Assembly (NCBI RefSeq): GCF_014843005.1
Contig: NZ_JACYXM010000006.1
Coordinates: 1 to 64,000 of the forward strand
DNA length: 64,000 nt
Reading direction: 5' to 3'
From: Rhodanobacter sp. DHG33
GTDB taxonomy: Bacteria > Pseudomonadota > Gammaproteobacteria > Xanthomonadales > Rhodanobacteraceae
The notes beneath the pieces are model-generated. The model did no database searches. It was given only the letters and a program-made list of their open reading frames with translations, and had not been told where the DNA came from. A program made the position numbers and the translations under genes. Shown here in pieces: positions 2,218 through 10,048 of the stretch; position 1 is the stretch's first letter, and each line of letters begins with the position of its first letter.

Positions 2218-2247
2218 TTGACGGCGCGGGCGGCGCTAGACTACGTT
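2218..2247 (+). promoter_or_regulatory. Weak candidate promoter for the thrS leader
   Basis: TTGACG at 2218-2223 is a good -35 match. An 18-bp spacer then leads to TACGTT at 2242-2247, a poor -10. It would start transcription roughly 50 nt before the candidate leader peptide. The call rests on this match and on the lack of any co-directional gene upstream. Confidence 0.3.
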
Positions 2248-2307
2248 TCCAGCATGGTTTCCCAGAGGCAAGGTGGCCCGCGCGCAAGTGCCGGCCGAGT
2301 GTGCGAC

Positions 2308-2334
2308 ATGTCCACTACCCACCGAACACCTTGA
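2308..2334 (+). promoter_or_regulatory. Candidate Thr-rich leader peptide of thrS (MSTTHRTP)
   Basis: A short open frame ATG...TGA encodes MSTTHRTP, with three threonine codons (ACT, ACC, ACA) among eight. It ends 25 bp before an intrinsic terminator-like hairpin that lies directly upstream of thrS. Leader peptides rich in the cognate amino acid followed by a terminator are the hallmark of ribosome-mediated attenuation (for example pheM before pheST in Escherichia coli). A Shine-Dalgarno site is weak (GAG about 9 bases upstream). A strong competing antiterminator stem is not obvious; TGTCC at 2309-2313 could pair with GGACG of the terminator's 5' arm. Suggestive, not proven. Confidence 0.42.
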
Positions 2335-2359
2335 ATTTCCGCCTAGCCCTACCTTGTCG

Positions 2360-2383
2360 AAAGGACGCTGTGGCGTCCTTTTT
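2360..2383 (+). terminator. Intrinsic terminator-like hairpin just before thrS
   Basis: AAAGGACGC (2360-2368), loop TGTG, GCGTCCTTT (2373-2381), continuing in T residues. The 9-bp stem ends 25 bp before the thrS ATG. The gene upstream runs on the other strand, so there is no plus-strand transcript here to terminate except thrS's own. This favours an attenuator in the thrS leader. Confidence 0.7.
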
Positions 2384-2407: not shown

Positions 2408-4309
2408 ATGATCGAGATCACGCTACCCGACGGCAGCAAGCGCCCGTTCGACCACCCCGTGTCCGTGCAGGACGTGGCCGCCTCTATCGGCGCCGGCCTG
2501 GCCAAGGCCACCTTGGCCGGCAAGGTGGACGGCAGGCTGGTGGATGCCAGCTTCCCCATCGACCGCGACGCCAGCCTCGAGATCGTCACCGAGAAAAGCC
2601 CCGAGGCGCTGGACATCCTGCGCCACTCCACCGCGCATCTGCTGGCGCAGGCGGTGCAGCGCCTGTATCCGGGGGCGCAGGTCACGATCGGTCCGGTGAT
2701 CGACAACGGCTTCTATTACGACTTCGCCTACGAGCGCCCGTTCACGCCCGACGATCTGGCAAAGATCGAGGTGGAGATGGAGAAGATCGTCAAGGAAGCG
2801 CTGCCGGTGACGCGCAGCGTGAAGTCGCGCGACGACGCGGTGGCGTTCTTCCGCGGCATCGGCGAGGCGTACAAGGCGGAGATCATCGAGAGCATCCCGG
2901 CCAACGAGGAGCTGTCGCTCTATTCGCAGGGCGAGTTCACCGATCTGTGCCGCGGCCCGCACGTGCCCAATACGGGCAAGCTGCGCGCCTTCAAGTTGAT
3001 GAAGGTGGCCGGTGCGTATTGGCGCGGCGACTCCAACAACGCGATGCTGACCCGCATCTACGGCACGGCCTGGTTGAACGACAAGGACCTCAAGGCCTAC
3101 CTGCACCAGCTGGAGGAGGCCGAGAAGCGCGACCACCGCAAGATCGGCAAGGCACTCGACCTGTTCCACCAGCAGGAGGAAGGCCCCGGCATGGTGTTCT
3201 GGCACCCGCGCGGCTGGGCGATCTGGCAGCAGGTGGAGCAGTACATGCGCGGCGTCTACCGCAAGAGCGGCTACCAGGAAGTGCGCTGCCCGCAGGTGCT
3301 GGATGTCTCGCTGTGGAAGAAGTCTGGCCACTGGGACAACTATGCCGAGAACATGTTCTTTACCGAGTCGGAGAAGCGCACCTACGCGCTGAAGCCGATG
3401 AACTGCCCCGGCCACGTGCAGATCTTCAATTCCGGCCTGCACAGCTACCGCGACCTGCCGATCCGCTATGGCGAATTCGGCGGCTGCCATCGCAACGAAC
3501 CCTCCGGCGCGCTGCACGGCATCATGCGCGTGCGCGCGTTCACCCAGGACGATGGCCACGTCTTCTGCACGCCCGGGCAGATCGAGCCTGAGGTCACCGC
3601 CTTCCACCGGCGGGCGATGCAGGTCTATGCCGATTTCGGCTTCGACAACATCGCGTTGAAGATCGCGCTGCGTCCGGACAAGCGCATCGGCTCGGACGAG
3701 GTATGGGACAAGGCCGAGGAAGCGCTGCGTGCCGCGCTGCGTGCCGCTGGCGTCGCCTGGGAGGAATTGCCGGGCGAGGGTGCCTTCTACGGCCCCAAGA
3801 TCGAGTACCACATGAAGGACTCGATCGGCCGCGCCTGGCAGGTTGGCACCATGCAGGTGGACTTCATGATGCCTGAGCGCCTGGGGGCCGAGTATGTGGA
3901 CGAGCACAGCCAGCGCCAGCATCCGGTGATGCTGCACCGGGCCATCGTGGGTTCGATGGAGCGTTTCATCGGCATCCTGATCGAGCACCACGCCGGCCTG
4001 CTGCCGCCGTGGCTGGCCCCGGTGCAGGCCGCGGTGTTCAGCATCACCGACGCCCAGGCCGGATATGCCGGCGACGTGGCGCAAGCCCTTGTCGAGAAAG
4101 GTTTCCGCGTAGAGGCCGATTTGCGCAATGAGAAGGTCGGCTATAAAATCCGCGAGCATACGTTGCAGAAAATCCCTTATCTTCTGGTGGTCGGTGACCG
4201 CGAGAAGGAAGCGGGGGCCGTTTCCGTGCGTACTCGTTCGGGTGAGGATCTGGGCAGCATGCCGCTGGCCGACTTCATCGGGCGACTGCAGGCCGAAACG
4301 CAGCGCTGA
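2408..4309 (+). CDS. thrS: Threonyl-tRNA synthetase
   Basis: Charges tRNA-Thr with threonine in the cytoplasm (class II synthetase). The 633-residue product has an N-terminal TGS domain (about 1-60), the editing domain with the zinc-like HSTAH motif at 73-77, the catalytic core with MNCPGH and the motif 2 region [16 protein letters not shown]...QDDGH, and a C-terminal anticodon-binding domain (about 535-633). Start: the frame is open further upstream, but the ATG at 2408 begins with the canonical MIEITLPDG and gives the family length. It heads the thrS-infC-rpmI-rplT-pheST-ihfA operon. A hairpin and a Thr-rich mini-ORF precede it, suggesting attenuation control. Confidence 0.98.
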
Positions 4310-4341
4310 AGGCGTTGCACGGCCTAATCAAAACTTCTTCT

Positions 4342-4357
4342 GGAGGATAGTGGTATC
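4342..4357 (+). promoter_or_regulatory. Shine-Dalgarno and AUC start that fix the infC N-terminus
   Basis: GGAGG at 4342-4346 stands 8 bases before ATC at 4355-4357. The strong ribosome binding site placed before a rare start codon decides the gene start and is the feature through which IF-3 discriminates against its own message. Confidence 0.85.
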
Positions 4358-4882
4358 GCTACCACCGACAACAAGGGTAATCGCCGTAACCTGGAAATCC
4401 GCGTTCCACGCGTACGCGTGATCGGCGCCGATGCTGAGCAGCTGGGCATCCTCACCCGTGACGAGGCGCTCGCTCTGGCGCAGGAAGCAGGGATGGACCT
4501 GGTCGAGATCCAGCCGAACGGCGATCCGCCGGTCTGCCGCATCATGGACTACGGCAAGTTCAAGTTCGAAGCCCAGAAGAAGGCCCAGGCCGCCAAGAAG
4601 AAGCAGAAGCAGGTCGAGATCAAGGAAGTGAAGTTCCGTCCGGTCACGGACGTGGGCGACTACGAGATCAAGCTGCGCAACATGCTTCGCTTCCTCGAGG
4701 AAGGCGACAAGGTCAAGGTCACCATCCGCTTCCGCGGCCGCGAGATGTCGCACCAGGACCTGGGCCAGGAAATGGCCAAGCGCATCCAGACCGACATCGG
4801 CGAGAACGGCCAGGTGGAATCCTTCCCGCGTCTGGAAGGCCGCCAGATGGTCATGATGATCGGTCCCAAGAAGAAGCAGTGA
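4355..4882 (+). CDS. infC: Translation initiation factor IF-3, AUC start codon
   Basis: IF-3 binds the 30S subunit, prevents premature 50S joining and proofreads start-codon selection. The N-terminal domain includes [16 protein letters not shown] and the C-terminal domain [10 protein letters not shown]. No ATG, GTG or TTG lies in the right place: the first usual start (GTG at 4418) would remove the first 21 residues of the N-domain. ATC at 4355 aligns with the family N-terminus and is preceded by GGAGG (4342-4346) at ideal spacing, giving 175 residues. infC is known for AUU-type starts, which let IF-3 repress its own synthesis. The same feedback is likely here. Confidence 0.95.
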
Positions 4883-9971: not shown

Positions 9972-10048
9972 CGGGGCGTAGCGCAGCCTGGTAGCGCATT
10001 TGCCTGGGGGGCAAAGGGTCGTCGGTTCGAATCCGGCCGCCCCGACCA
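9972..10048 (+). tRNA. tRNA-Pro (anticodon GGG)
   Basis: A complete 77-nt cloverleaf. Acceptor CGGGGCG (9972-9978) pairs with CGCCCCG (10038-10044), followed by A and an encoded CCA (10046-10048). The anticodon stem TTTGC/GCAAA (9999-10003/10011-10015) holds the loop CTGGGGG with GGG at 10006-10008. The T-loop is TTCGAAT. A terminator follows at 10084. Confidence 0.97.

Follow-up and report, generated by a model that had tools for sequence, protein, structure and literature searches.

A probable threonine-codon attenuator upstream of thrS in Rhodanobacter and related bacteria

The thrS leader of Rhodanobacter sp. DHG33

How is thrS, the gene for threonyl-tRNA synthetase (ThrRS), controlled in a bacterium whose thrS leader contains both a short ORF with Thr codons and an intrinsic terminator? 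In the textbook case, Escherichia coli, the synthetase represses its own translation via a tRNA mimic in the thrS leader; the pheST genes of E. coli are controlled by a ribosome-mediated attenuator with a leader peptide (PheM) of 14 codons, and the biosynthetic thrABC operon by attenuation at thrL, a leader with many Thr and Ile codons. A sequence-only reading of the 64,000-nucleotide stretch of Rhodanobacter sp. DHG33 DNA analysed here (the window) proposed that pheM-like, ribosome-mediated attenuation is applied to thrS. The relatives, in which the Thr codons, the terminator, an alternative pairing and the link to thrS recur, favor this proposal; judging from the sequences, we place at roughly 85% the probability that the leader controls thrS by ribosome-mediated transcription attenuation in response to charged tRNA-Thr. 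The features on which the argument depends are these:

2218-2247, plus strand: promoter-like pair TTGACG (2218-2223), 18 nt, TACGTT (2242-2247); kept in leaders, with a weak -10 in the window
2267-2274, plus strand: region 1, GGCAAGGT, part of an AAGGUGG box; possible 8-bp partner of 2351-2358 (fold)
2275-2296, plus strand: stem-loop P1, with 5' arm 2275-2283, loop GCAA, 3' arm 2288-2296 and an internal C.C mismatch
2308-2334, plus strand: leader ORF MSTTHRTP (ATG TCC ACT ACC CAC CGA ACA CCT TGA), 8 codons plus TGA, by direct reading
2314-2316 (ACT), 2317-2319 (ACC) and 2326-2328 (ACA), plus strand: Thr codons 3, 4 and 7 of the leader ORF
2340-2347, extended by 2352-2355, plus strand: region 2, CGCCTAGC, the 5' strand of the antiterminator, pairing with 2367-2375 (fold, swap tests)
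2361-2375, plus strand: region 3, the 3' strand of the antiterminator, also serving as the terminator's 5' arm and loop and the beginning of its 3' arm (fold, swap tests)
2360-2383, plus strand: intrinsic terminator, stem 2360-2368/2373-2381, loop TGTG, T-run 2379-2383
2408-4309, plus strand: thrS, the presumed target of the regulation, encoding a threonyl-tRNA synthetase of 633 aa

Direct reading bears out the mini-ORF with three Thr codons in eight and the 9-bp terminator hairpin with its T-tract: the stem is perfect (AAAGGACGC/GCGTCCTTT), 25 nt separate the stop codon of the ORF from the hairpin, and 24 nt separate the end of the terminator from the thrS ATG (2408). The upstream neighbor (1156-2163) is encoded on the minus strand and the sole tRNA in the window is located at 9972, so no other plus-strand gene is near enough to own the terminator, as the sequence-only reading had also argued. 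In dinucleotide shuffles of 2164-2407, a Thr-rich ORF (ATG start, 5-30 codons, at least 3 Thr, one third of codons Thr) occurs in 1/3000, a hairpin followed by TTTTT (GC-rich, 6 bp) in 5/3000, and both in 0/3000, with criteria that were chosen with the window sequence already in view; we reject a chance ORF on these counts.

Generic searches are silent at this locus. A consensus promoter/terminator scan called neither a promoter nor a terminator at the thrS leader; our guess for the terminator is that the rule wants a T-run beyond the longest stem, whereas the T-run of the window sits inside the stem. Against Rfam, the window in its entirety matches one tRNA only at gathering score, with nothing at E<=5 in 2170-2430; neither the T-box model nor the Rfam threonine operon leader model is matched. 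The entire leader does not fold more stably than its shuffles (z -0.72). A GTG at 2273 in frame with thrS was considered as an alternative start and rejected; in relatives the spacing between the element and thrS ranges from 16 to 170 nt. On the 3' side of thrS, an infC-like ORF is listed from a GTG at 4418; its true start may be a rare codon farther upstream (4310-4420), as is frequent in infC.

Conservation of the ORF, the terminator and the alternative pairing

The search for thrS covered 15 genomes from the genus, 97 from the family and 121 from the order (overlapping sets) as well as named genomes, of which the best 80 were kept (top match Rhodanobacter sp. DHB23, 94% ThrS identity). The start of thrS is in view in 187 loci; 116 match the ORF pattern GNGTGNGACATG upstream and 71 do not, the latter including many betaproteobacteria and also L164, L008, L204/L166 and L097. 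Of the 116, 115 have 75 nt of upstream sequence, and these give 102 distinct leaders; 87 are left after 90% thinning and a length filter, and 83 of them have a terminator; 78 entered a covariance model (R1) and 79 the region 2:3 swap test described below. The collection pattern includes the ATG and the bases before it, so their invariance is no evidence; the Thr codons, the position of the stop, P1 and the terminator are outside the pattern.

With codon 2 variable, codon 3 encodes Thr in all 102 distinct leaders (ACT 91, ACG 10, ACC 1) and codon 4 in 78 (ACC 47, ACG 26, ACA 3, ACT 2), the latter with a varying third base; of the 12 leaders with Arg at codon 4, 11 have Thr at codon 5. The peptides contain only one to three Thr codons (two or three in 91/102), that is, codons for the amino acid of the gene that follows, and the ORF is exactly 8 codons in 86/102. 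The sequence-only reading had named conserved Thr codons as a check, and this outcome agrees with it. An ACT codon is present somewhere in the ORF in 98/102 leaders; in the genes of the window this codon is rare, making up 3 of the 86 Thr codons counted across six CDS. The conservation of ACT could instead be a demand on the RNA.

The hairpin, the second feature to be checked in relatives, also persists: a terminator is located between the ORF and thrS in 83/87 leaders and is not found in four (L165, L195, L023, L027). The proportion of terminator cells paired in the alignment (76.5%) is probably too low, because the MAFFT alignments (A1, A2) are out of register where loop sizes differ. One of the four, L195 (genome G018), retains the ORF (MSTRTIRR) and P1, a state that may possibly reflect decay or a change of mechanism; G043, G070 and G083, which belong to the same genus as G018, are among the listed misses of the covariance model. 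In L128, L132, L133, L139 and similar family members, short palindromes such as ccggccatccatggccgg are found between the terminator and thrS and are perhaps REP-like repeats.

For the antiterminator, the short pairing first suggested (TGTCC with GGACG) gives way to a better one, in which 2340-2347 pairs with 2367-2375 (one bulge) and 2352-2355 with 2361-2364; 2329-2376 folds in this way at -13.8 kcal/mol, the same value as the terminator alone. In many leaders region 2 is CGCCACGCCTTG, complementary to the terminator 5' arm and loop GGCGCGTGGCG, and compensating variants can be seen by eye (CGAGGC versus GCCTCG in Lysobacter-like leaders, CCAGGC versus GCCTGG in others). The swap tests support this pairing: region 2 pairs better with region 3 of its own genome than with that of other genomes (z -5.6 at n=79, from -16.2 kcal/mol own and -14.9 swapped; the reversed-hairpin control gives z -2.1). 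When the leaders are thinned by their variable part, z is -4.4 (n=44, control -1.1), -2.8 (n=10, control -1.5) and, with 4 sequences, -1.5, which is not significant; when 7 representatives are picked by the conserved part instead, neither region 2:3 (z -0.3) nor region 1:2 (z -0.8) gives a signal. A mutually exclusive antiterminator kept by covariation, the third feature sought in relatives, is thus found at every sample size except n=4 and these 7 representatives.

The geometry of the ORF may suit such a switch. We modeled the ribosome as covering 12 nt past the A-site codon, a geometric placement only; in 70/83 leaders, moving the ribosome from the stop to codon 3 improves the fold to region 3, with its end set automatically, by at least 4 kcal/mol. 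The window is outside these 70 with the automatic cut (-8.4 stalled vs -5.9 at the stop, a difference of 2.5 kcal/mol); with the cut at 2376, the values are -13.8 and -6.5, a difference of 7.3 kcal/mol. When the stalled state is folded to 2390, the terminator is still preferred (-14.4), so the switch must be kinetic, with the antiterminator winning by forming first. The kept length of 8 codons agrees with a geometry in which a stall frees region 2 and a ribosome at the stop covers most of it.

P1, the AAGGUGG box and the predicted switch

A promoter-like pair (at least 5/6 matches to TTGACA, 16-18 nt, at least 3/6 to TATAAT, at -140 to -45 of the ORF) is found in 62/87 leaders versus 3.4 expected from mononucleotide shuffles, and 51 of the 62 end 54-65 nt 5' of the ATG. 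In the window we infer from this pair (2218-2247) that the RNA starts at about 2253; a transcription start 3' of 2308, which would have refuted the attenuator, is not indicated.

The sequence-only reading considered the Shine-Dalgarno site poor; in addition to it, a conserved AAGGUGG box is present behind the conserved stem-loop P1. The box is complementary to the anti-Shine-Dalgarno sequence (mean -8.0 kcal/mol, n=100, vs -0.8 for random upstream 8-mers), and close to the ATG no 8-mer does better than -5.3 kcal/mol. P1 would bring the box near the leader AUG; hairpins bring the Shine-Dalgarno sequence near the start in some phage genes. P1 itself is 95.8% paired in 78 sequences, and six of its eight pairs have changed on both sides; its internal position is unpaired in 76/78 sequences (C.C in 65). 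Region 1, within the box, may also pair with region 2: the region 1:2 swap test gives z -5.0 (n=78; control -0.6, region 1:hairpin control -2.2) and, after thinning, -2.8 (n=43) and -1.6 (n=10).

From these elements we propose the following sequence of events. The RNA would start near 2253 and a ribosome would load on the leader ORF, perhaps aided by the AAGGUGG box that P1 brings near the AUG. With ample Thr-tRNA, the translating ribosome would reach the stop codon and cover region 2 with its footprint, which would extend to about 2346; region 3 would then pair with region 4, and transcription would end at about 2383. With scarce Thr-tRNA, the ribosome would stall at codons 3-4 with its footprint ending near 2328, so that region 2 could pair with region 3 ahead of the synthesis of region 4; this would delay or block the terminator, and RNA polymerase would read through into thrS. 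The predicted direction of the response is, therefore, increased read-through upon threonine limitation.

P1 is the best-paired part of the leader and is located outside the ORF, its internal mismatch is kept as binding sites often are, and the region 1:2 pairing is partly backed by the swap tests. These observations would suit an attenuator governed by P1 or by a protein, e.g., ThrRS or a ribosomal protein that binds P1 and steers region 1:2 vs region 2:3 pairing, with the ORF merely loading ribosomes. However, such an attenuator accounts neither for the constant Thr at codon 3 next to a variable codon 2 nor for the Thr ORFs that precede thrS in betaproteobacterial loci (see below); we consider it improbable.

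Range of the element and its relation to other thrS leaders

At E<=0.01, R1 matches in 165 of 299 genomes of the order. In all of the 73 genomes with matches listed with positions and thrS placed, the best match is 16-170 nt 5' of thrS on the same strand (only the best match was compared, and G151, which fits by eye, is left out); several genomes carry a second or third, weaker match outside this placed set. The genome of the window has one match. Seventy genomes of the same family match, all at E 7e-11 or better, and the misses include at least six genomes of this family. Matches below 1e-15 are nearly all in the family of the window (f1) and in f2, with one in f4 (G153), so the combination of P1 and ORF is essentially confined to two families; two f12 genomes match at 1e-7 to 1e-9, and weaker matches in other families may be chance. 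Among 185 genomes of the class, five match at E<=1e-4: the genome of the window, two others of the order and two weak ones, in one of which (G384) the match and thrS are on different contigs.

The link to thrS also bears on whether the hairpin could be an ordinary terminator, serving a small RNA or an upstream transcript, next to a chance ORF. For this one may cite the silent consensus scan and a tRNA-Val(GAC) gene, which the terminator could serve, upstream of thrS in 13 of the 18 loci scanned; the window, however, has no such upstream gene, the ORF is kept in 102 distinct leaders, and the element is tied to thrS in 73/73 genomes compared. We regard this explanation as the least probable of those considered here.

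Thr ORFs and terminators before thrS are also found beyond the order. In betaproteobacterial loci, other short ORFs built around Arg-Thr precede thrS (MTPRTTT..., MTPRTLTETTSERR, MFRTTPALIAA, MVTRTCTRVGL, MISRPTRTTTGNFRPMSR). A CGA-ACN ORF is found in 46/79 loci vs 4.6 expected from mononucleotide shuffles, in a list that mixes betaproteobacteria, deep branches and some near-duplicate Xanthomonadales. Thirty-six of 47 betaproteobacterial loci have a terminator together with an ORF containing RT or TT (an ORF criterion chosen after viewing), and their antiterminator swap test lends weak support (-18.8 own vs -17.8 swapped, sd 0.45). We predict that many genomes of Xanthomonadales and betaproteobacteria encode a leader peptide in front of thrS.

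Could the leader nevertheless contain an operator of the E. coli thrS type, i.e., a hairpin resembling the anticodon arm of tRNA-Thr to which ThrRS binds, blocking ribosome binding? E. coli thrS works in this way, and hairpins with a Thr-anticodon-like (TNGTA-type) loop do occur in relatives: in 4/9 outlying loci (Halomonas-like L046, L057 and L067, plus L097) and in 13/29 loci across the class (28 outside the order), 11 of the 13 starting about 35-45 nt 5' of thrS and the other two being off-place. In these 29 class loci, a Thr ORF is found by a similar rule in two, Xanthomonadales L254 and one that overlaps a tRNA. In the 102 leaders, however, the hairpin is found in none, whether from 75 nt 5' of the ORF up to thrS or in a narrower scan of the last 120 nt; the P1 loops are commonly GTAA, CAAC, GCAA and CAA, and an operator leaves the Thr ORF and the terminator unexplained. 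The sequences contradict this alternative, and we consider it very improbable for the window.

Replacement of operator and attenuator by each other across lineages is the simplest story that the leaders suggest. If this is correct, one gene, thrS, can move between two unrelated feedback systems. A more detailed history is tentative and, in our estimate, rather unlikely as a whole: on an ancestral tRNA-Val(GAC)-thrS transcript, the ancestor of betaproteobacteria and Xanthomonadales would have given up the translational operator that binds ThrRS in other gammaproteobacteria and taken on a ribosome-mediated transcription attenuator. In the family of the window and its sister family this attenuator would have been reduced to an 8-codon ORF around one rare ACU; its Shine-Dalgarno box would be delivered over P1 and would double as the anti-antiterminator strand, letting the leader read out both initiation and stalling.

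The putative mechanism is of a known kind; the points worth following are P1 and the exchange of operator for attenuator. As in pheST/PheM, a synthetase gene is preceded by a short ORF with cognate codons and by an intrinsic terminator for which an alternative pairing exists; the amino acid and gene differ, and the thrS leader has 8 codons rather than 14, few control codons and the extra P1 before the ORF. Thr control codons and attenuation would be shared with thrL-thrABC, in which a biosynthetic operon, not a synthetase gene, follows many Thr/Ile codons. E. coli thrS is the same gene controlled from its leader, but there a ThrRS-binding anticodon mimic acts on translation, and its pattern is absent from the 102 leaders. 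The attenuator proposed here is compact: 8 codons, an invariant Thr at codon 3 and a conserved extra hairpin with a testable role.

Among the papers listed, the closest likeness is in Streptomyces lividans TK24, for which passages of PMC8079986 describe a putative threonine leader (thrL) before thrS, with two Thr codons, as a proposed attenuator; like the leader ORF of the window, it is a short ORF with Thr codons before thrS. According to the same passages, it has 18 codons (MKRVRPFLETTPGFVPAR), is leaderless, and its termination is 'not clear'; the two peptides look dissimilar when compared without alignment. For Xanthomonadales and betaproteobacteria, no title or beginning of an abstract among the open-access PMC papers listed describes an attenuator of thrS with a Thr leader. 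PMC2965389 deals with hisS attenuators; in the parts available, threonyl-tRNA synthetase comes up a single time, with reference to E. coli. PMC8079986 cites a survey of attenuators in proteobacteria by Vitreschak and others (2004).

Three further observations concern individual thrS loci. The tRNA-Val(GAC) genes that adjoin the thrS leader, in both Xanthomonadales and betaproteobacteria, are located in L012, L015, L025, L026, L031, L044, L051, L065, L075, L209, L212, L214 and L216; this neighborhood suggests an old tRNA-Val-thrS transcript. L097 (G007), from a small genome of the same genus as the window, does not match the ORF pattern; in the last 30 nt before thrS it carries CTTGA-GTTGGTAG-TCAAG, a hairpin whose loop resembles a Thr anticodon; a return to the operator and a foreign thrS are both possible origins. 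One member of the family has a second copy resembling thrS, with 54% identity to the query, at G020:C1:1343318-1345168.
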